From Chloroflexota bacterium (lineage in GTDB: Bacteria; Chloroflexota; Limnocylindria; Limnocylindrales; CSP1-4): 64,000 bases of DNA. The notes beneath the pieces are model-generated. The model was not told where the DNA came from. It worked only from the letters and a program-made list of their open reading frames with translations, and searched no databases. Both the position numbers and the translations under genes were made by a program. Positions 4,138 through 64,000 of this stretch are shown in pieces; the first letter of the stretch is position 1; each line of letters opens with the position of its first letter. The stretch is from positions 1-64,000 of the forward strand of contig PNAP01000010.1 of assembly GCA_003169735.1 (NCBI GenBank), read 5' to 3'.

Positions 4138-5262
4138 CTATGGTGTTTCGCTTGGCGAGAGTGTGGGCAGGCTGCCGGCGTACAGCCCTTCGAACTGGGT
4201 GATCATCGCCTCCAGTGCCTCGTAGCTGGGCGGGTCGATGACGTCGTTGAGGCTGTCCGGGATGGTCAGGCCGTGGTTCGTCACGAAGGTCGAGAAGGCG
4301 GCCGTGTCGGAGGTGCGGAACCCATATTGCGTGGCCAGCGTGCGCATCTCCGGGTCCGTGGCGATGAAGTTCCCGAGGCGCGTCCCATCGGGCGTCAGGC
4401 CGACGAAAGTGTGCTTGGAGAAGATCGTCGGCTCGGGATACATCAGGCGCATCTGCGAGGTGATGCCGCCGGTGGTGGAGGCGGCCGCGGCCACGTACTG
4501 GGCCTCGTAGATCATCACCAGCGGACTCTTGCCCATGCCCTGCACCAGGTAGTCGTCGAACGGTTCTTCCGTGCTGCTCTCGACGAAACCCTGCTTCAGG
4601 AAGAGCGGCGCCGTCTGCTGGACGATGGAGTCGATGTCACCGTTGTTCTGGACGATGTTGTCGCCGTTGACGACGTAGCTGGCGATGGCGAGATACATCG
4701 CCGCCGAGTTCGACTTGCGCACGTCGGTCGACGTGATGAGGATGCTCTTGTTGACCGGGTAGGTGGTGTTGCCCGGCAGGTCGATCCAGCGCTTGTCCGA
4801 CGCGACGAGGGCCATGTACTTGGTCATGTCGAAGCCGAGATAGCCCGGTTGCTGCGTGACCACGCCGGCCTGGGTCAGCAGATCGACGATGGGCTGGAAG
4901 GTCGCGATGGCCATCGGCGTGTAGAACGGCACGATCGACGTCGTGCCCGAGTGGTTCAGCGCGATCTCCGCGGCCGATGGGCCGCCGGCCGGAAAGGCGA
5001 AGTCCTCGTTGCTGAGATCGGCCGTCGCGATCTGGCGGGAGCCGGCAGTCGCCACGATCACGTCGAAACCGCCACGGTGTAGCGCGGCGACGACCTGCGG
5101 ATCGCTGAAGAAGGGCTGCTTCTCCGATCCGATGAGGCCGCGCAGCGTGACCGCAGTCGGGCCAAGGTGTTGGCTGACCGATTGGAAGATGGCGAAGCCG
5201 ACGCCGACGATGAGGATCGCGGCGAGACCGAGCGCAGCCAGACGGCGAGACGGGTTGTTCAC
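4138..5262 (-). CDS. Membrane-anchored solute-binding-like protein
   Basis: 374 aa, GTG at 5262. The N-terminus has one hydrophobic segment (AALGLAAILIVGVGFAIF) after a short basic leader, with no lipobox cysteine, so it is probably an uncleaved anchor. The rest is extracellular and resembles type 2 periplasmic binding proteins (LRGLIGSEKQPFFSD, then a TSTDVRKSNSAAMYLA hinge-like region). No ABC permease or ATPase lies beside it, so transport is unlikely. A role as a sensor or partner of the VWA lipoprotein two genes on is inferred. It is first in the operon. A GATAAT box lies at 5276-5271 on the minus strand, only 8 nt before the GTG, so the mRNA is probably leaderless. Confidence 0.65.
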   Translation of the reverse strand: MNNPSRRLAALGLAAILIVGVGFAIFQSVSQHLGPTAVTLRGLIGSEKQPFFSDPQVVAALHRGGFDVIVATAGSRQIATADLSNEDFAFPAGGPSAAEIALNHSGTTSIVPFYTPMAIATFQPIVDLLTQAGVVTQQPGYLGFDMTKYMALVASDKRWIDLPGNTTYPVNKSILITSTDVRKSNSAAMYLAIASYVVNGDNIVQNNGDIDSIVQQTAPLFLKQGFVESSTEEPFDDYLVQGMGKSPLVMIYEAQYVAAAASTTGGITSQMRLMYPEPTIFSKHTFVGLTPDGTRLGNFIATDPEMRTLATQYGFRTSDTAAFSTFVTNHGLTIPDSLNDVIDPPSYEALEAMITQFEGLYAGSLPTLSPSETP

Positions 5263-51769: not shown

Positions 51770-53302
<1,533 letters not shown>

Positions 53303-53306
<4 letters not shown>

Positions 53307-53548
53307 GCTGTAGGGTCCTCCCGATCGCCAACCACCATCGACCGTTGCTGTGACCTCATCCGGCTCGCCTCGCCGATGGCGAACACCACGGCCGACTCGA
53401 AGCGGTCGAGCGGCGCGTCCGTGGAACCGGGCGATGGCGCAGCGTGTTGATGGACCCATTCACGCTCTGACCGGAGGGTCTTGGCAAGGTCCGCGATTGA
53501 CGCGGGTCTCGTCGCCCTCGTCGGAGCGCCACTCGGCTCCGCAGTCAT
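53303..53548 (-). CDS. Small protein coupled to the serine recombinase
   Basis: 81 aa. Its TGA shares bases with the recombinase GTG (GTGA), the tight coupling expected for a partner protein. Contents: a Pro/Ala-rich first ~15 residues, a helix ADLAKTLRSEREWVHQH, then DRFESAVVFAIGEASRMRSQQRSM. No family recognised. Possible recombination directionality factor or accessory protein by position only. Confidence 0.45.
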
Positions 53549-54978: not shown

Positions 54979-57525
54979 TCAGCGTGGTGTCACCGTCGCC
55001 GGCGACGGAAAGGCCGCATGAATCTTCTCGACCCAGTCGAGGTAGGTGCCTATTGTCTCTCCGACATCCGTTCCGAAGACGCCACCAGCGAGGGAGCTGA
55101 GCGTCGACATCCGCAAACGGTATGACTCGTCTTTGTAGAGGCTGCGTGTGGCCGGGATGTCGGCCTTGGCGTCGCGAAGAAAGAACGCGATTCGGGTTGC
55201 AAGCGCCACACGTCCCGCAGCCAGCGCCGCGCCGCCCAGTTTGGCCAAGCCGAAGTCAATTCGTTGCTTCCGTCCGGCTAGTCCTGGTGCGAGTGACAGA
55301 GACACTAGTTTCATGCATCCTCGTTCGACCTGGACCTCGAGGAAATAGTCGGCGCGCATTGCGCGGCCAAGCATCTCCTCGAACCGCTGGCGTACCAACT
55401 CCTCTTGGCGCGGCAACGGCGTCGTAGCGACAAGCCGGTCCAACATGCTTTCCATCGCGACGCGAGCCGGGAAGAACGACCCACGCCTCCCAGCCTCGCA
55501 AACGATTCCAGCGACCTCCGACATCAGGGCCGCACAGGTAGGGCTAGCCTCGGCCGACGCGGTTCTTGCAGCGACGTCGAGACGAGCTATCAGGATGTCC
55601 GCCGCGGAGGAATACTGACTGGCATATGTCAGACGTGCCAAACGTAGAGCGTGCTCGCGTAGGACTTCTACCTGGGCTTCATCCCTCCGCTCGCTGGCTT
55701 CGTACCACGCCGATTCGAAGCCCCTTACGGCTCCGAGCTCGAGTCCGAATGAGAGTTTCGCAGCGAGGTACCCTTCCGGGGCTTCCTTTGTGGCCAAGAG
55801 ATCGTCAGCGACGCGAAGGAACCGCAGAATCAGTATCTCGATCCTCCGACTGGTCTCGTTAGCGCCTTCCGCGTCTCGGTCTGACTGGCTGTTGAAGACC
55901 CGCGCGAGGGAGAGTAGGGTTTCGTAGGCTCGACGGACCGACGGTAGCCGTTTCACGTCGACCAATTCCGTTGCCGCTGGCAAGAGTCGGCGGGCAACCT
56001 CTGGTTCATCGACCTCGACAACCGCGATCACCTCGTTGGCGGATACGGTCGCGCCCGGATCTTCGAGGAGAACCAGCGAGGGAGCCGGTGACCCGGTTCG
56101 CAGGGGTGACTGCTGGGTCTCATCAAGGAGAGCGCCCGCCCGTGCCATGCGAGCTGGATCGAGGCTCAAATAGCCATCGTGCCGCGCTTGAATGACCATT
56201 CGCCGGCGTGTGATGGGCTCGGTCGTCGCGCGACGTATTCGCGCAGATGTCGCCAGGACGTCTTTGATAGAGACCGCCATGGTAAGGAACCGGGCTGCGT
56301 GTTCGCCTGCAATGGCAAAGTCTCGAGAACGATCCCTGGCGACGCGAGCGGTCGCCCGCCTCGTGTCGGCCTTCGGAACTAGGTCCATTGCCACGATCGG
56401 GACGTGCGCCACCAAAACCACCGCGACTGCAAGGGCAAGGTTCCCCGTCGCATCGGGAACCACGACGACGAGGACGAAGAATGCGGCAATGGCGTAGGCG
56501 GAGACGAGTCTTGCGGGCCAAGCCACGCTCGACACCATTCCAAGGGGTAGGGCGCTGGATGCGAGTTGTACTGCCAGAACATGAAGCGCTATCAGAAGCC
56601 CCGCAGTCGCCAGCGCATCGCCGAGACCGAATGTGGGAAGGCGATGACCATCCTGTGCCAATCGGTCGAAGCCAGCCCGTAGGGACAAGACAAGGGCCAT
56701 GTCAGCAAGGAGCAGAACCGATAACCGAATCCTGAATCCAAAGCCGACATACTTGAACCGGAGGCGGTTGACCGTCCTCCTTGCGCGACCCAGCCACCCA
56801 CGTGAGGTTCTTGGCTCTCGGAGAGAATCGGTGGTGGAGTAGCGATCATCCGCTGGTCGCAGTCGTTCGGCGAGGGCGTCAGGGGAATCGGCCAGTACTC
56901 GAGCGACGTCAGGCAACGCGGCAGCTGTCAGGAGTCCACGGCGCGCTACGGCCATGACAACTACTTCGGCCGCACCGATGGAACCCGAGGGAGAACCCTC
57001 GACCGCATCGAGCAGCTCCTTCGCCAAGGACGGATACAGCGCCAGCATCGATGCGACGGCCCGACGAGCGACAAAGGCTGAGCCGGGCGCGTAGGGGTTG
57101 AGCGGTGAAGTTGCCTCGACTGTCGCCGAGGCAACGATCATCGCCGCCTCAGTCGCGTTCACGCTCGCAGCAAATTCGGGAACCAGTGCGATCGCCGTCA
57201 ATCGCCGTGTCGTCAGGAGTGCGGGGAGAAGGACCAGTTTCGCTGCGACTGGATCCTTTGCAGCAATCCCTGTCGCGATACGGAACACGCTGGCACCCAG
57301 ATCCGCGCTGTTGGCGCTCAGCAGCTGCGAAAGGAAGTCCACGGTGAGGCTCTCCGGCTCGAGGACAGCCTGGAATGCGACCTCTGCTGGAAGAATGTTG
57401 CGTAGCTCGGTCGCGACCCGCCAAGGGTCATCAATCTGGCCATGCGCGGCGAGTCGGACCATTGGAGGCCAGATCGGCCAAGTCGGATGGCGGGCGATAC
57501 GCCGGGCAAGTACCTGCCGAATCAC
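54979..57525 (-). CDS. Large membrane protein of unknown function in the island
   Basis: 848 aa, GTG start 13 nt after the preceding stop. The N-terminal ~230 residues are helical repeat-like (HEAT-like character). Then come about four membrane helices at residues ~265-390 (IRLSVLLLADMALVLSL; LATAGLLIALHVLAVQLASSALPLGM; AIAAFFVLVVVVP; LALAVAVVLVAHVPIVAMDLV). A ~450-residue cytoplasmic or external C-terminal part follows, mostly helical, with no nuclease, ATPase or protease motif that I can see. Codon use is less GC-biased than the host genes. By position and composition it forms a two-gene unit with the next upstream gene. No family recognised. Confidence 0.65.
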   Translation of the reverse strand: MIRQVLARRIARHPTWPIWPPMVRLAAHGQIDDPWRVATELRNILPAEVAFQAVLEPESLTVDFLSQLLSANSADLGASVFRIATGIAAKDPVAAKLVLLPALLTTRRLTAIALVPEFAASVNATEAAMIVASATVEATSPLNPYAPGSAFVARRAVASMLALYPSLAKELLDAVEGSPSGSIGAAEVVVMAVARRGLLTAAALPDVARVLADSPDALAERLRPADDRYSTTDSLREPRTSRGWLGRARRTVNRLRFKYVGFGFRIRLSVLLLADMALVLSLRAGFDRLAQDGHRLPTFGLGDALATAGLLIALHVLAVQLASSALPLGMVSSVAWPARLVSAYAIAAFFVLVVVVPDATGNLALAVAVVLVAHVPIVAMDLVPKADTRRATARVARDRSRDFAIAGEHAARFLTMAVSIKDVLATSARIRRATTEPITRRRMVIQARHDGYLSLDPARMARAGALLDETQQSPLRTGSPAPSLVLLEDPGATVSANEVIAVVEVDEPEVARRLLPAATELVDVKRLPSVRRAYETLLSLARVFNSQSDRDAEGANETSRRIEILILRFLRVADDLLATKEAPEGYLAAKLSFGLELGAVRGFESAWYEASERRDEAQVEVLREHALRLARLTYASQYSSAADILIARLDVAARTASAEASPTCAALMSEVAGIVCEAGRRGSFFPARVAMESMLDRLVATTPLPRQEELVRQRFEEMLGRAMRADYFLEVQVERGCMKLVSLSLAPGLAGRKQRIDFGLAKLGGAALAAGRVALATRIAFFLRDAKADIPATRSLYKDESYRLRMSTLSSLAGGVFGTDVGETIGTYLDWVEKIHAAFPSPATVTPR

Positions 57526-57538
57526 GACGCGCTGCGCT

Positions 57539-58735
57539 CTACGGCCACCGTTCGTGGCCTGGAAAGTAAAGGGGATGGTTAGGCTGCTCGAAGTCGCTCA
57601 GGAGCTGGCTGAGATGAGACTCGAGTGACCCCTCGGCACGATTCGCCACGTCGCGAGCCACCACGACTGTCTCGGCCAAACTTGCAGCCGCAGCACTTCG
57701 CTCGTTCTCTGGCGGAAGAGTCGCCTCGAATCGGTCCGCGTTCGCTCGCATGCGAGCGATGGTGGCCAGCGAGAGGGACCACGGTTCCAGCAGCGACGCA
57801 GGGTACGACGGTGCGCGCTGCTCGATTCCGGGAATGACAAGCGCGTCGACCGGGCGCCAAATGCCGGTTTCGTCGGATTCTAGTATCTGTCCATTTGGGC
57901 GATCGTTGCCCAGATCGAGCCGGTCGGGACGCACAACGCGCACCTGGGGAACGCCGACGGACTGGTCGATCACGAGCGCGCCTGCGCCCATCAGGAGTGA
58001 GTCTCGAACGGCGTGGGCGACGAATGTCGCAGTGCGAGCGTCGGTGGTCGACTGCTCCACGACCCGACGGACATGCTCCGATGGACCTACCGCACGATGC
58101 CCAAGCCCGACGGTGACGGCCACGACCTTGTCCACGGACTGCCGAATCACGGGCAACGAGTTGTAGCACCAGGCGAAGAAGTTCGTGCGGGCAGCGAATG
58201 CGGCTCGCGTCAGCATCGGTTGGAATACGCACGTCTGGATACCGAACCCCCACCGAGTGAGCGTAATCGCGACTTCGTCGCGATGTCCCGCTCGCATCGC
58301 CCGTGCGAGCGCGTAGGCGTCAGCCTTCGACAGAAGGTCCAACTGGTCGATACCGTCGATTAGGTCAGTGATGTCGGCTTCGTCTTTGGCCACTTTCGCG
58401 GTGACATCTTGGCGACGCAGTATCGAAATGACGTAGTCAGCCACAATCAGGGCTTGAACGTCTGGAGTCCGATCTTCATTGACGGCTATCACGAATGGAT
58501 TGTCGCCGGTCCCCTCGGGAACAGACATCGCGGTATCGAAGGGCAAGACTGGGAACGCGTCTAGATTGGTCGGCCACCACGGACCGGGCCGGAAAAGCGT
58601 AAATGCGAACTGGAAGGTCGGCTTGCCCTCCGCAGGGCGCACGGAGTCCAAGGCATCGACCGCCTGGGAAAGGCTGGCGAACTCAGGAGAGGTGTCTACC
58701 AGCTTCTCCCGAGTCTCGGCATCTGATTGGTTCAT
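57539..58735 (-). CDS. Hypothetical soluble protein upstream of the membrane protein
   Basis: 398 aa, ATG 58735. No signal peptide or membrane helix. Mixed alpha/beta; regions include FQFAFTLFRPGPWWPTNLDAFPVLPFDT, a helix-rich middle (FFAWCYNSLPVIRQSVDKVVAVTVGLGHRAVG) and VVRPDRLDLGNDRPNGQILES followed by a long C-terminal helix. I recognise no family or catalytic motif. Lower-GC composition like the downstream membrane-protein gene, so the two were probably acquired together. Function unknown; the defence genes next to it make a role in phage defence possible. Confidence 0.6.
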   Translation of the reverse strand: MNQSDAETREKLVDTSPEFASLSQAVDALDSVRPAEGKPTFQFAFTLFRPGPWWPTNLDAFPVLPFDTAMSVPEGTGDNPFVIAVNEDRTPDVQALIVADYVISILRRQDVTAKVAKDEADITDLIDGIDQLDLLSKADAYALARAMRAGHRDEVAITLTRWGFGIQTCVFQPMLTRAAFAARTNFFAWCYNSLPVIRQSVDKVVAVTVGLGHRAVGPSEHVRRVVEQSTTDARTATFVAHAVRDSLLMGAGALVIDQSVGVPQVRVVRPDRLDLGNDRPNGQILESDETGIWRPVDALVIPGIEQRAPSYPASLLEPWSLSLATIARMRANADRFEATLPPENERSAAAASLAETVVVARDVANRAEGSLESHLSQLLSDFEQPNHPLYFPGHERWP

Positions 58736-58922: not shown

Positions 58923-61900
58923 CTACTCTTTGTCCCAGCCGAAGTCTTTGAAACGGAGGGTCTTGGCGTTCTCGGAGATGGTGCGGACGGTGTCGTCGGT
59001 GAAGCCGTCGGCGGCGGCGTGATCGGCTTCGACCTGGAGGGTGATGTGCAGTCGGACGTCGGTCTGCTGGGCGAGGCGGTCGATGACTTCATCGACGATC
59101 TTGATGAGTTCGGGCATGGGGCGACGAGGGTCGCTCAGCGCCACTTCGCCGTGGAACCGCTTGATGTGTCGCTCCGGTGGCGTCTCGGCCTCGGGGCCGG
59201 CAACCGGCGGCTTCGGGCCCTCCACGCCTGGCAGCGGGTCCGGTAGCGCCGAACCATCCACGATGAAGCTGGCCGACGTGATCGGCGTCTCGGCGACCCG
59301 GCCGGCGACAATACCCCCGTACTCCCCGGCCTCCTCACGCGCGGCCGCGTAGGCGAATGTCTCGGAGCGCCACAGCAGGCTCGACGACCCGTCGCGAACT
59401 GCACCTTCGAGGACTGAGACGTCTCGTAGGCGCGGCAGGTACGGATACTGGGCGAACCAACCCCATAGCTGCTTCAGCCCGAAGGCGTGGTCGGCGTCCC
59501 ACTTCTCCTTGAGCACGCCGTCGAGCACGAGCCGCAGGTTCACGCCGCCGAACTTCGTGATGAGGTGCTCCTCGTTGCGGAGCTTGGCCCCGGCGCGGAC
59601 GGCGATCGAGTCAGTCCCACCGGAGACCTTGATCGGCTGGAGGACGACCTTGGCGAGCGGATCGGCCTGCTGCGGGACGAGTAGCCAGTGGTAGGTCTCG
59701 GGGATCCTCGACTGCGCGGATTGGTCGGCGCCATCCCGCTGCGATTTCGCCTGGCTCCGCTGGAACCCGTCGAGGTTGAGCCGGCCGGCCTCTCCATCCG
59801 AGACGATCGATTCCCACGCCAAGAACTCGCGGACCGCCTGCGTGAGCTCGGCGAGGCGGAGGTGGTCGGCCGCCAGGAACACGACCATGTTCTGGTTTGT
59901 GCGAGCGCCCGCACCGCGTGACGCCAGGATCTCGGCCGCCGCGGTGATCGCCTTCGACACAGCGCCCTTGGCGTCGTGCGGGTACTCGGGCCCGAGCGCG
60001 ACGAGCGCGACCTCGTCCTCGTCGGGCACATCCGCGCCGGACTTGGGCGACGGGTGGACCCGGGCGAACGGGCCCCGGTCGGCCAGAAGCAGCTTCTTGA
60101 GCCGACTTTCGATCTCCATCTCGACCCGATCCGTCGATTGCTGCGCAGCACGGTCACGGGCGAGCTGATTGACCGAAGGCTGCGTCGCATACCAGTAGCG
60201 GCCGGCATCCTCGTACAGGTACGTCGCCTGCCCAGCGAGCCTGCGCAGCGCATCACCGAATGTCGCCGGCGTCTCTCCCGGCTGCACCGAACCGAGCAAG
60301 ATCCGCCGGTCGTCGATCCCACGATTGGCCGCCGATGGTATGGGCGCCGACCCCAGGAAGACCGCCCGCGCGACCCGGCGAGCCGCCGAGTACCGCCCGT
60401 ATGTCCCGGCGTTCTCTTGGTCCAGCCGAAGCGGCAGGGACCCGACGCCATCGACATCGGTCTCGATGATCGGCACCCATCCGTCGTCGAGGTATTGCGT
60501 CAGCTGCGGAAGGACGGTCGCGTCGTCGAGCGGGATCGCCGCCGGGAGGATGAGCAGGTTCCCGTCCTGGCGCTCCCAGAGCGCGTGGACCACGGCAGCC
60601 ATGAGTTTGAGTACGCCGCGCGTGCGCTGGAACCGTTCGAGGGTGGACCAATCGTTGAACAGAACGTCGAACAGCTCGGGGTGGATCGGGTAGCAGCTGC
60701 GGATGCGGTCGAGGTACGCCTTCTCCTTGGCCTCGGCCGGGAAGCTCCCGTGGTGCTGGGCGTACAACTCGCCGAAACGCTGGACGACCTCGTCCCTCCC
60801 CTTCGCTCCTTCAGGCGACAGCTGGTCGAAGAGCCGGCGTCGTACGATCTCGAAGGATTCCTGAGCGGCCGCCGGACGCCACGGAGCATCGACTCGATGG
60901 ACGACGTGCTTGAGCGATTCGAGCGCCTTCTGGCCACCTTCGCCGCCGACCTCGATGGCCGACGACGGGAGCGAAACGACGAGCATCGCACCCGGCACCT
61001 GGTCGATGGCACCCGTCAGTTGTTGGGCGAATGAAAGGGCCGCATCGAAGGTCCCACCGGGCAGATCGTCCTTGCCCCATTGGAGCCGGGCGTAGGTCAC
61101 CCATTCGTCGATGAGGACGACCACCGGGGCGTGTGCGGCAAGCAACGCACGAAGGGCAACGGCGCCGGGTGGCACGGCCTGTCGGTCCGCCTCGGCGACC
61201 GTCGCGAATGCCTTGGCGCCGCCGAGCTGCCAGGCGAGCTCGCCCCACAGCGTTCGGATCTCGGTCCCGTCCACCGTCTTCGGGGTGATGGGCGACATGT
61301 CCGTCCCGACAATGGCTGCGCGGGAGATCTTCGGCAGGCTCGTCACCTTAGCGTCGGTCAGCACGCGCTCGAGACCGGGCAGGCTCGCGATCTGGACCTT
61401 AGGGTCGGCGAGATGCCAGAGCGCGAGCATCGAGTGCGTCTTGCCGCCACCGAACGTGGTCTGCAAATCGATGACCGACTCGCCACCGGTCCCGGTCAGC
61501 CGCCGGAGCGCGCCCGTGAGGAGGAGCCGGAGTCCCTCGGTGAGGTACGTCCGGGAGAAGAACTCGCGGGGGTCGACGTACTCTTTGGCACCCTCGCCGC
61601 GCGCCACCTGCGCGAGATCCGCGGCAAACTCGGCCTGGCGAAAGTTGCCTGACGAAACGTCAGGGTGCGGGGTGGCGAGTGTCCGCCACGACGCGAGTCC
61701 CTTGAGCGGTTCGGCCGAGACTGCCGTTGCGCTGGAGGCCCGCTTTCCGTCCTTCTGATTGGCGATGGCGTTCTCCAGGCCAATCGCCGATCGGCTCTTT
61801 GCCAACTCGTCTGCCTGAGATGCGGAGACCGCACGAAGGAGCCGTTCGGCGGTGTCGTAGGCGCGATAGACGTCCTCGCCGCTGAATGGCTTGCCTGCCC

Positions 61901-62195
61901 CGTGCGCCCACCGATTCCGCGTGTCACGCAACTCGGACACATAGTTCCTCTCGGCCGCTCCGAGGGTCTTGCCAAGCGTCGCCGCCCAGTGGAACTGAAT
62001 CGCGTTGAGCAGGAACTGCGGGTCATTCGGGTTCGACGAGGCGGACGAACCGGTCGCCAACTGCCTGTCAGCGGCAACGACGGAGACCCAGGACGATCCA
62101 TACGCCTTCGTGAACTCCTCGTTCACAACCGGGCTGAGCCCGTTCGCGAGCGTGTCGAGCATCCGCCCGATCCGCTCCTTGTTTGTCAGGGCCAT
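58923..62195 (-). CDS. DUF499-type AAA+ ATPase with N-terminal Swt1-like HEPN domain
   Basis: 1090 aa from ATG 62195, with GGAGGTGG directly upstream; the longer frame back to 62342 overlaps the methylase. Residues ~1-125 resemble the Swt1 type of HEPN domain, with the RNase-type motif R93-N94-R-W-A-H98 inside LRDTRNRWAHGAG. The ATPase core has Walker A FGGGKTH at 248-254 (LQTTFGGGKTHSMLALWHL) and VVLIDEWVTYARL (Walker B-like). The C-terminal part ends in the DUF499 signature region TVRTISENAKTLRFKDF. COG1483 ATPases of this kind are encoded with COG1743 (DUF1156) methylases in defence-type loci. Starts 10 bp after the methylase stop. Confidence 0.85.
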   Translation of the reverse strand: MALTNKERIGRMLDTLANGLSPVVNEEFTKAYGSSWVSVVAADRQLATGSSASSNPNDPQFLLNAIQFHWAATLGKTLGAAERNYVSELRDTRNRWAHGAGKPFSGEDVYRAYDTAERLLRAVSASQADELAKSRSAIGLENAIANQKDGKRASSATAVSAEPLKGLASWRTLATPHPDVSSGNFRQAEFAADLAQVARGEGAKEYVDPREFFSRTYLTEGLRLLLTGALRRLTGTGGESVIDLQTTFGGGKTHSMLALWHLADPKVQIASLPGLERVLTDAKVTSLPKISRAAIVGTDMSPITPKTVDGTEIRTLWGELAWQLGGAKAFATVAEADRQAVPPGAVALRALLAAHAPVVVLIDEWVTYARLQWGKDDLPGGTFDAALSFAQQLTGAIDQVPGAMLVVSLPSSAIEVGGEGGQKALESLKHVVHRVDAPWRPAAAQESFEIVRRRLFDQLSPEGAKGRDEVVQRFGELYAQHHGSFPAEAKEKAYLDRIRSCYPIHPELFDVLFNDWSTLERFQRTRGVLKLMAAVVHALWERQDGNLLILPAAIPLDDATVLPQLTQYLDDGWVPIIETDVDGVGSLPLRLDQENAGTYGRYSAARRVARAVFLGSAPIPSAANRGIDDRRILLGSVQPGETPATFGDALRRLAGQATYLYEDAGRYWYATQPSVNQLARDRAAQQSTDRVEMEIESRLKKLLLADRGPFARVHPSPKSGADVPDEDEVALVALGPEYPHDAKGAVSKAITAAAEILASRGAGARTNQNMVVFLAADHLRLAELTQAVREFLAWESIVSDGEAGRLNLDGFQRSQAKSQRDGADQSAQSRIPETYHWLLVPQQADPLAKVVLQPIKVSGGTDSIAVRAGAKLRNEEHLITKFGGVNLRLVLDGVLKEKWDADHAFGLKQLWGWFAQYPYLPRLRDVSVLEGAVRDGSSSLLWRSETFAYAAAREEAGEYGGIVAGRVAETPITSASFIVDGSALPDPLPGVEGPKPPVAGPEAETPPERHIKRFHGEVALSDPRRPMPELIKIVDEVIDRLAQQTDVRLHITLQVEADHAAADGFTDDTVRTISENAKTLRFKDFGWDKE

Positions 62196-62205
62196 TCCAC
62201 CTCCA

Positions 62206-64000
62206 TCAAGTGTCGAGCCCCAAGCGGGACTGACCCGGCTGCCAACCAGCTGCCGAGTCGGCGCGACGGATAAGCTCGGGCCACGCAACAACGAGTGCGT
62301 TGTAAGCCAGCGCCTCGTCCGTCCAGCCTCTTCGCCCCGCAAGCTGGTACAGGCGATACGCGAGGTCGCGCGCCGTGTCGCCTGAACCTCTCAAACGACC
62401 AAGCAGCTCGCCAGCTGGTCCTTCGCCGTCAGTCAGGAGTAGGTGGACGAGGCGTTGAGTTGCCTCCCACGTTGGCAGTCTCGTGTCGTGTGACGGATCC
62501 CAATTCACGGTGTACTCGCGTCGCGCCAGCAAACGAACGCGCCCTCGAATGGCTGAAACGATTCCTGCCTCGACTAAACCAGGCACTGAGGTGTTCTTGG
62601 CGGTTGAGAGAGTCTCAGCGATTCCGTACTCGCCCTCGTGAAGTCCGAACTGCTCATACCAGGCAATAGCCCACCTTGTGTCGGCATCGAACTCACCTTC
62701 CTGCTCTGCCAGGATCTCGTCCAGGACCCCATTTATCAGAGCAAGCGCAGTTCGGACGCGCATCCCAGAGCCATCGGGCTCGAGCACCCTCGCGTACCGG
62801 CTGAAGACCGCCATCCCCGGGCCGATGGCCGATTGGGCCAGGTCCACGGGAGCGATGTTTCCACGCTGCAGCGTCCGAACTGCAACAGGCATCTCGCGCT
62901 TCAGGGCAGTAACGAAGTCCTTGCGGGCTACTACCTCGGCATCGAACTTGCGTGGCCGGCAAACGAGGACAATCGATGACGCGAGGGCATTTGACGCGGA
63001 CGCACGAGACCGCTGGGCCTGTTCGGTCCTCAGAGGCCATGTGCCGGTGACCGAATACCCCGCGGCGACCAAGCCTTCGAGCATCGTGGACCAACCCGTG
63101 CTTGCAACCACTATTGAACCGTCATCTTCCGCTGCGGACTCGACCTGCCTGAACGCGTAGTAGATCGTCGCAGGGCAGTCGGTCCCTTCGGTTGCGGCCC
63201 GAAGCGCCCGGAATGTTCGGCTCATTCCGGCATCGAAAAAGTCGCGCGCTGCAAGCCGACCACCCTGCCTTACGGGGTCCGCCACGAGCTCGGTCGCCTT
63301 AGGGGTAAGGAGGGTCTTGAATAGGTCGGGCCAGATTTGCCTCATCGAATGGCGCAGCCACACGTAGTAGAAGTCCGCCAGATCGGCATATGGCACGTTG
63401 TCGTAGTAAGGGGGATCAGTCGACGCAACGACATTTCGTCCCTCCATGCTCGCCGTTGCATCGGCCATCTCGACGAAAGCCGCGGTCACGGGAACGACCG
63501 CGCCCAACGCGTTTGCGACCCATTCAATAGCCGTCGCAAGCGTGACGGAACCGTGAGTGAGACTGGCCTCGGCGAAGTCCCAGGACATGGGAAAGGCCTG
63601 GCGGACAAATAGCTGCCTCAAGTTGGTGTTACCTGAATCCCATGATGCGAGACTGTTGTGGAAATCCGTTAAACGCGACACGGCGAGTGACAGGTATGTC
63701 GAAATGGCATCGGAGTATGCCTTAGCTCCTGTTCCGCCAGTCGCGAGACGAGTTCCCGAGAGCTCGAATCCCGCATCACCTGCGTCGCGGAGCACCTGGG
63801 CTGCGACGTTCGGAATCAGGTCAACAAGGGTCGTAAGCCCCACCAGCTGCCGATTGGTGAACAGGTCTGCAAATGACTGCATGCCGTACGTCGGCGGTGT
63901 CGAATGTCGGATGTTCCTGGAGAGATCGCCGGGCGGCACCCAGCTGGGAGTGTCCGCCACGTTTCGCATCGCGTCCGAGTGGTCGCCCGGAATGTAGCTT
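62206..64000 (-). CDS. DUF1156-type DNA methylase, C-terminal part (cut by window edge)
   Basis: About 598 codons in the window, open to the right edge, so the N-terminus and start are missing. The amino-methyltransferase motif IV is TDPPYYDNVPYADLADFYY (near 63400). The segment before it (WVPPGDLSRNIRHSTPPTYGM ... FADLFTNRQLVGLTTLVDLI) is typical of DUF1156/COG1743 adenine-specific methylases. After motif IV come FFDAGMSRTFRALR, YYAFRQVESAAEDDGSIVVASTGWSTMLEGLVAAGY and TWPLRTE. It modifies DNA, presumably to mark self in the same system as the DUF499 ATPase, whose gene follows 10 bp later. Composition is less GC-rich than the ATPase gene. Confidence 0.85.
   Translation of the reverse strand, partial: SYIPGDHSDAMRNVADTPSWVPPGDLSRNIRHSTPPTYGMQSFADLFTNRQLVGLTTLVDLIPNVAAQVLRDAGDAGFELSGTRLATGGTGAKAYSDAISTYLSLAVSRLTDFHNSLASWDSGNTNLRQLFVRQAFPMSWDFAEASLTHGSVTLATAIEWVANALGAVVPVTAAFVEMADATASMEGRNVVASTDPPYYDNVPYADLADFYYVWLRHSMRQIWPDLFKTLLTPKATELVADPVRQGGRLAARDFFDAGMSRTFRALRAATEGTDCPATIYYAFRQVESAAEDDGSIVVASTGWSTMLEGLVAAGYSVTGTWPLRTEQAQRSRASASNALASSIVLVCRPRKFDAEVVARKDFVTALKREMPVAVRTLQRGNIAPVDLAQSAIGPGMAVFSRYARVLEPDGSGMRVRTALALINGVLDEILAEQEGEFDADTRWAIAWYEQFGLHEGEYGIAETLSTAKNTSVPGLVEAGIVSAIRGRVRLLARREYTVNWDPSHDTRLPTWEATQRLVHLLLTDGEGPAGELLGRLRGSGDTARDLAYRLYQLAGRRGWTDEALAYNALVVAWPELIRRADSAAGWQPGQSRLGLDT

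Follow-up and report, generated by a model that had tools for sequence, protein, structure and literature searches.

A complete HEPN-fused Hma operon carried by a phage-like element at a tRNA-Val gene in a Chloroflexota genome

The stretch of DNA analyzed here (the window, 64,000 bases) corresponds to bases 1-64000 of contig C97 (66,767 bases) in a metagenome-assembled Chloroflexota genome (GCA_003169735.1; 3.06 Mb, 124 contigs, 92.65% complete). At its right edge the window carries hmaC and part of hmaB, two genes of an operon identified here as a complete Hma (helicase-methylase-ATPase) system in its HEPN-fused form; the third gene, hmaA, is located beyond position 64000. The features of the operon that fall in the window are the following.

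58923 to 62195, minus strand: hmaC, encoding a HEPN_Swt1-DUF499 AAA+ ATPase of 1090 amino acids (PADLOC HmaC, E=1e-293; Pfam).
61824 to 62165, minus strand: HEPN domain of HmaC, about residues 11-124 (Pfam HEPN_Swt1, E=6e-30; coordinates taken from the protein match).
61902 to 61919, minus strand: R93-x4-H98 motif of HmaC (RNRWAH), the predicted RNase active site.
61434 to 61454, minus strand: Walker A motif FGGGKTH, residues 248-254 of HmaC (F248-T253 invariant in 39 of 39 proteins).
62206 to 64000, minus strand: hmaB, encoding a DUF1156 DNA methyltransferase; the full gene (933 amino acids) extends to 65007 in window numbering.
63406 to 63417, minus strand: motif IV of HmaB, DPPY (in DPPYYDN), residues 531-534, unchanged in all 21 complete operons.
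63427 to 64000 in the window and on to 64221, minus strand: residues 263-527 of HmaB, a hypervariable and exchangeable segment interpreted as the target-recognition insert (DNA breakpoints, Mantel tests and approximately unbiased (AU) test).

The likely start codon of hmaC is the ATG at 62195, with GGAGGTGG just 5' of it, and the open reading frame ends at 58923. As the hmaB stop codon is located at 62206, the two genes are 10 bp apart, which had been noted in an initial annotation made from the sequence of the window. That annotation had also likened the two genes to the COG1743/COG1483 pairing of defence-type loci. Both points were borne out, with DUF1156 detected in HmaB (Pfam, E=1.7e-23), DUF499 in HmaC (Pfam, E=1.2e-31) and all three proteins matching the PADLOC models for HmaA, HmaB (E=0) and HmaC. 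HmaC carries, in addition to its Walker A motif, a Walker-B-like motif (IDE) at residue 362. In HmaB, DPFCGG is found at residue 119 and DPPY at residue 531, such that motifs I and IV, which have an insert between them, are about 410 residues apart. The N-terminal HEPN domain with an R-x4-H motif, proposed in the same annotation along with FGGGKTH and DPPYYDN, is likewise present, and R93-NRWA-H98 is the sole R-x4-H in HmaC. The further suggestion that a single protein combines HEPN with DNA modification did not hold; HEPN belongs to the ATPase, and the methylase is encoded separately (cf. PMC3710099, a 2013 survey in which HEPN domains associated with restriction-modification (R-M) are fused to nucleases, helicases and ATPase subunits, not methylases).

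The interruption of hmaB at 64000 reflects the edge of the window and not the start of the gene. Upstream, hmaA overlaps hmaB by 4 bp, and all three hma genes are on the same strand. hmaA is divided between two contigs, with its C-terminal half on C97 (PADLOC HmaA, E=3e-206) and its N-terminal half at the end of contig C28 (E=1e-259), and the two halves cover positions 3-595 and 590-1172 of the profile. The contig ends share an exact overlap of 20 bp, and the joined hmaA is a single open frame of 1170 amino acids with the Snf2 motifs DDPGAGKT and DEAH and the nuclease motif IEVKG. Its C-terminal half contains the end of the helicase and a NOV_C (DUF3883-type) nuclease domain (E=1e-21); a helicase or nuclease to the right of the window had been anticipated from the window sequence.

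The operon therefore shows the features of Hma, or type-1 DUF499-centred BREX-related (BR), systems, namely a DUF499 ATPase, a DUF1156 methylase with an insert, a Snf2 helicase-nuclease and a three-gene organization, together with the N-terminal HEPN domain with an Rx4-6H motif that defines the HEPN-fused form, and it is a complete system of this kind. The gene order A-B-C is the same in most complete relatives. The nuclease residues D1077, E1091 and K1093 and the methylase motifs DPF-G and DPPY do not vary in any of the 21 complete operons, and the Walker A and Walker B residues are constant across 39 HmaC proteins (the window copy and 38 relatives, all except L066 from the Chloroflexota genomes searched).

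The 21 complete operons, drawn from close relatives in metagenome assemblies, form 210 pairs, which were analyzed by Spearman correlation and Mantel tests; the Mantel pairs are not independent, a structure that the permutation preserves. Relatives were ranked by PADLOC score, which favours type-1 systems, and the five matching genome contigs all represent Chloroflexi metagenome-assembled genomes. Across the 210 pairs, HmaA and HmaC identities are correlated (Spearman 0.87), as is the identity of the HmaB C-terminus (0.78), whereas HmaB residues 263-527 and 528-690 show no such relationship to HmaA (r=0.01 and r=0.07, respectively). HmaA and HmaC blocks of similar size, used as controls, all retained r=0.51-0.84, including an equally divergent block, HmaC 796-1060 (median identity 39%, r=0.84); saturation is therefore not the cause of the lost correlation, and it is also ruled out by the tree of the target-recognition domain (TRD) and by the DNA breakpoints.

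Individual pairs show the same pattern. L033 and L086 are 97% identical in HmaA and 95% in HmaC, with TRD inserts that are 39% identical, and L080 and L091, which share 47% identity in HmaA and 40% in HmaC, have inserts that are 55% identical (64% over residues 250-690). At the DNA level, similarity breaks and resumes near operon positions of about 4320-4379 and 5173-5178, alike in three comparisons, with 86-90% identity on either side of the breakpoints. A fourth operon, L036, aligns through the breakpoints uninterrupted, as would be expected if it has the same cassette type. In the AU test, the TRD tree rejects a five-operon HmaA/HmaC clade (p-AU 0.003); a larger clade of seven operons is not significantly broken (p-AU 0.107), and rejection is therefore claimed for the five-operon clade only. 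Moreover, L090 and L091 are HEPN-less Hma operons with a very distant HmaC, and in the tree their HmaB insert falls among those of HEPN-bearing systems; specificity cassettes are common to the HEPN-bearing L078 and L080 and the HEPN-less L090 and L091.

Divergence of this segment could also have arisen through fast evolution in place, as in an arms race, with no exchange between operons. While TRDs are known to evolve fast in general (PMC12839542) and most close pairs show a similar identity of 35-50%, this explanation is improbable in light of the sharp return of DNA identity on either side of the segment, the occurrence of cassettes that are more alike between distant operons than between near-identical ones, and the equally divergent block of HmaC that still follows the operon tree. 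The finding that HmaA and HmaC diverge in step and that HmaB 263-690 does not suggests instead that the DNA specificity of the entire system probably resides in HmaB, which would be swapped as a cassette, like PglX of BREX, described in PMC11341690 as the BREX specificity factor. The study of BR systems places the target-recognition insert between methylase motifs I and IV (PMC12839542). It is likely that HmaB alone sets specificity for both protection and attack, with the insert (about residues 263-527, together with 528-690) recombining among otherwise constant systems, including those with and those without HEPN. If so, HmaA and HmaC would be sequence-agnostic and would accept new HmaB cassettes, as type I R-M systems accept a new HsdS and BREX a new PglX. 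The comparison thus singles out the methylase, and not the hypervariable tail of the ATPase, as the candidate sequence-reading part.

Some related operons differ in their gene complement. In L077, hmaC is preceded by a tandem pair of hmaB-like methylase genes, which might represent two specificities per operon. Other operons have additional genes, either in the hmaA-hmaB interval or downstream of hmaC (L035:2046-2750, L036:3749-6190, L036:12382-14265 and L034:3812-5542); their products are an HNH nuclease, an ADP-ribosylglycohydrolase/phosphatase/HNH fusion protein and TOPRIM ATPases of the OLD type.

An integrative phage-like element of about 34.5 kb, inserted at a tRNA-Val gene, carries the operon as cargo. 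Two features in the window mark its left end.

51770 to 51846, plus strand: tRNA-Val(CAC), the attachment site and left end of the element (repeat of the 3' half at C28:19546-19589).
51789 to 53459, minus strand: serine recombinase/integrase gene, whose 3' end reads into tRNA-Val (Pfam Resolvase, E=1.5e-8; PHROG integrase, E=2e-27).

At the far end of the element, the 3' half of tRNA-Val is found as exact pieces of 13 and 17 bases, and the island is bounded by tRNA-Val and an aconitase gene on C28. In a related genome (L102) the site is empty, with tRNA-Val followed by approximately 300 bp and then by aconitase, and with yggT on the opposite side, which provides independent support for the join of C97 and C28. 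The island also encodes a prim-pol protein, a D5 helicase and both terminase subunits. Given this content, the operon might serve the mobile element and not the host, with HmaB methylating element DNA and the system excluding competing phages or addicting the cell. The presence of integrase, primase, D5 helicase and terminase genes on the tRNA-inserted element agrees with such a role, as do a viral contig in IMG/VR, which carries an HmaC that is 84% identical along with a D5 protein (59%) and a recombinase (37%) related to those of the window element, and the hma copy of L033, which is flanked by prim-pol and a tail tape-measure gene. However, Hma is also found outside recognisable phages, including in 131 plasmid records, where the NCBI name for the relatives is "Swt1 family HEPN domain-containing protein", and protection of the element and protection of the host are not mutually exclusive. 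Service to the element is rather less probable than the favoured explanation. A search of phage GenBank records found no HmaC relative.

With good confidence, we favour the interpretation that the operon, as a complete HEPN-fused Hma system carried by the phage-like element at tRNA-Val, acts most likely as an R-M-like defence. The gene set, the gene order and the intact motifs were observed, and from these we infer each of the activities in the following scheme, the order of which (marking by HmaB, assembly of HmaC, cutting by HmaA, HEPN as a backup) follows a proposal in PMC12839542. HmaB, judging by its motifs and family, would methylate its own recognition sites in host DNA, and its exchangeable insert would, in view of the mosaicism described above, fix the site for modification and defence alike. 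HmaC, a BrxC-like AAA+ ATPase, may assemble on unmethylated sites, and HmaA, a predicted Snf2 translocase with a C-terminal PD-(D/E)XK nuclease, would then cut the invading DNA. The HEPN domain of HmaC could serve as a second, conditional effector by cleaving RNA when restriction fails; this is the weakest step of the scheme, and the abortive response suggested in the initial annotation is likewise putative.

Several observations weigh against this interpretation or parts of it. hmaA spans a contig join in a metagenome-assembled genome that is held by a 20-bp overlap. In HmaB, the region of hypervariability extends past the TRD insert as predicted, as far as approximately residue 690, and its limits thus fit no single domain neatly; as an AlphaFold2 model of a related HmaB (L066), built from a four-row alignment, was unusable (mean predicted local distance difference test (pLDDT) score 47), the limits of the TRD were drawn from sequence alone. 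HEPN is missing from 4 of the 39 HmaC proteins and is therefore dispensable in evolution. Furthermore, HEPN domains can be non-catalytic. The AlphaFold2 model of the HEPN domain is fair (pLDDT 76), with R93 and H98 both within helix 80-98, but the top match in a PDB fold search, the HEPN protein 2hsb, was not significant (E=0.8), and the model was therefore not used as evidence.

These observations on HEPN raise the alternative that the domain is a structural or regulatory module for dimerisation or RNA binding and that killing is due entirely to DNA restriction by HmaA. HEPN domains often dimerise, and the exchange of cassettes between systems with and without HEPN (L078 and L080 with L090 and L091) would be consistent with this alternative. 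A large minority of published type-1 systems also lack the domain, as an N-terminal HEPN fusion is reported for 1370 of 2446 taxa (PMC12839542). Nevertheless, all 35 of the 39 proteins that have HEPN retain R93, W96, A97 and H98 without exception; conservation of the HEPN residues had been set beforehand, in the initial annotation, as a test by which its proposal could fail, and the proposal was not refuted by it. Invariance of the HEPN site and the other catalytic residues indicates that they have been kept by selection, even though it does not show what HEPN would cut, and the bacterial DUF499-fused (Ava_2192) form was rated active in the HEPN survey (PMC3710099). A purely structural or regulatory HEPN is thus rather unlikely, and RNA cleavage as a conditional second effector activity is retained in the preferred scheme.

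Between hmaC and the recombinase gene, the element carries two further genes in the window.

57539 to 58735, minus strand: gene of 398 amino acids with no family match, 187 bp after hmaC.
54979 to 57525, minus strand: gene of 848 amino acids, likewise without a family match, whose product has a hydrophobic stretch at its centre, 13 bp after the 398-amino-acid gene.

The 398-amino-acid gene has no relative in 60 related genomes or in the viral contigs of IMG/VR, and the 848-amino-acid gene has a single short fragment match in the 60 genomes and none in the viral contigs. As they lack profile matches and are essentially without relatives, both were rejected as extra Hma components and are not considered core to the system. 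On C28, just upstream of hmaA, a Zac defence system survives as a remnant (C28:4330-3710 and 3642-2713; L015). ZacA is represented by its N-terminal portion (profile positions 1-164 of 396) and ZacC, next to it, by its C-terminal portion (739-1016 of 1019), and the central portion of the system has been deleted. Clear reduction of a neighbouring defence system to its ends might suggest that the hma operon is also degraded or inactive, yet this is very improbable since each hma gene is an uninterrupted, full-length frame with intact and conserved catalytic motifs. Further along C28 (6227-4670; L015), a small open reading frame (RelE-like by reading only), an Xre-type helix-turn-helix protein and a SecB-like protein are encoded consecutively, an arrangement that resembles a toxin-antitoxin-chaperone module. 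The same element also encodes, at C28:7397-11665 (L015), a CDF cation-efflux transporter, an ArsR-like regulator, a permease, a rhodanese and a small methyltransferase, which were identified by reading of open reading frames only and may represent metal-resistance cargo.

Comparison with known systems supports the placement of the operon among Hma systems. BREX types 1 and 3 (BrxC, PglX/BrxX, PglZ) share with it a related BrxC-like ATPase and methylase logic, but here the helicase bears its own nuclease, and PglZ (PF08665) had no match in this genome (92.65% complete) in a search whose control gave its match; canonical BREX was therefore rejected. Class 1 DISARM (DrmD and DrmMI) also has a Snf2-type helicase, with weak DrmD similarity (E=4e-20), but DrmA, DrmB and DrmC are absent beside the operon, the C-terminal half of the helicase scores 69.5 bits against an NCBIfam DrmD cut-off of 610, and HmaA fits far better and covers both halves. 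The type-2 BR form, in which the helicase bears a phospholipase-D-like nuclease (PLD-helicase), does not apply either, as scores were 189 against 1200 bits for DUF499_antiphage and 127 against 1000 bits for DUF1156_antiphage. A PDB sequence search with HmaC gave no match. DUF3780 had no match in this genome, in a search whose controls gave no match either.

The closest counterparts come from three published descriptions. In 2013, a HEPN-DUF499 R-M neighbourhood of the Ava_2192 type was recorded (PMC3710099), in which a Swt1-like HEPN domain is found on a DUF499 AAA+ protein in an operon with R-M components and a SNF2-DUF3883 helicase; no difference at the level of architecture was found. The HEPN-fused type-1 BR systems described in 2026 (PMC12839542) share the HEPN-DUF499 ATPase, the DUF1156 methylase with a TRD insert and the Snf2 helicase with a C-terminal active PD-(D/E)XK nuclease. 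That study credits recognition of invaders mainly to fast-evolving parts of the ATPase, whereas in the operons compared here it is the ATPase that tracks the operon tree, from which the methylase insert departs. The Hma system of Payne et al. 2021 (PMC8565338) has the same gene set and order, and the PADLOC models for HmaA, HmaB and HmaC match over most of the protein length. By comparison, the match to the PADLOC HmaC profile starts at about residue 167, so that the HEPN domain lies outside that model, and HmaB was labelled an m5C methylase by Payne et al., whereas DPPY and PADLOC's own label point to adenine. The Hma system has thus already been described, and the copy in this window is one more member, complete and well delimited, in Chloroflexota.

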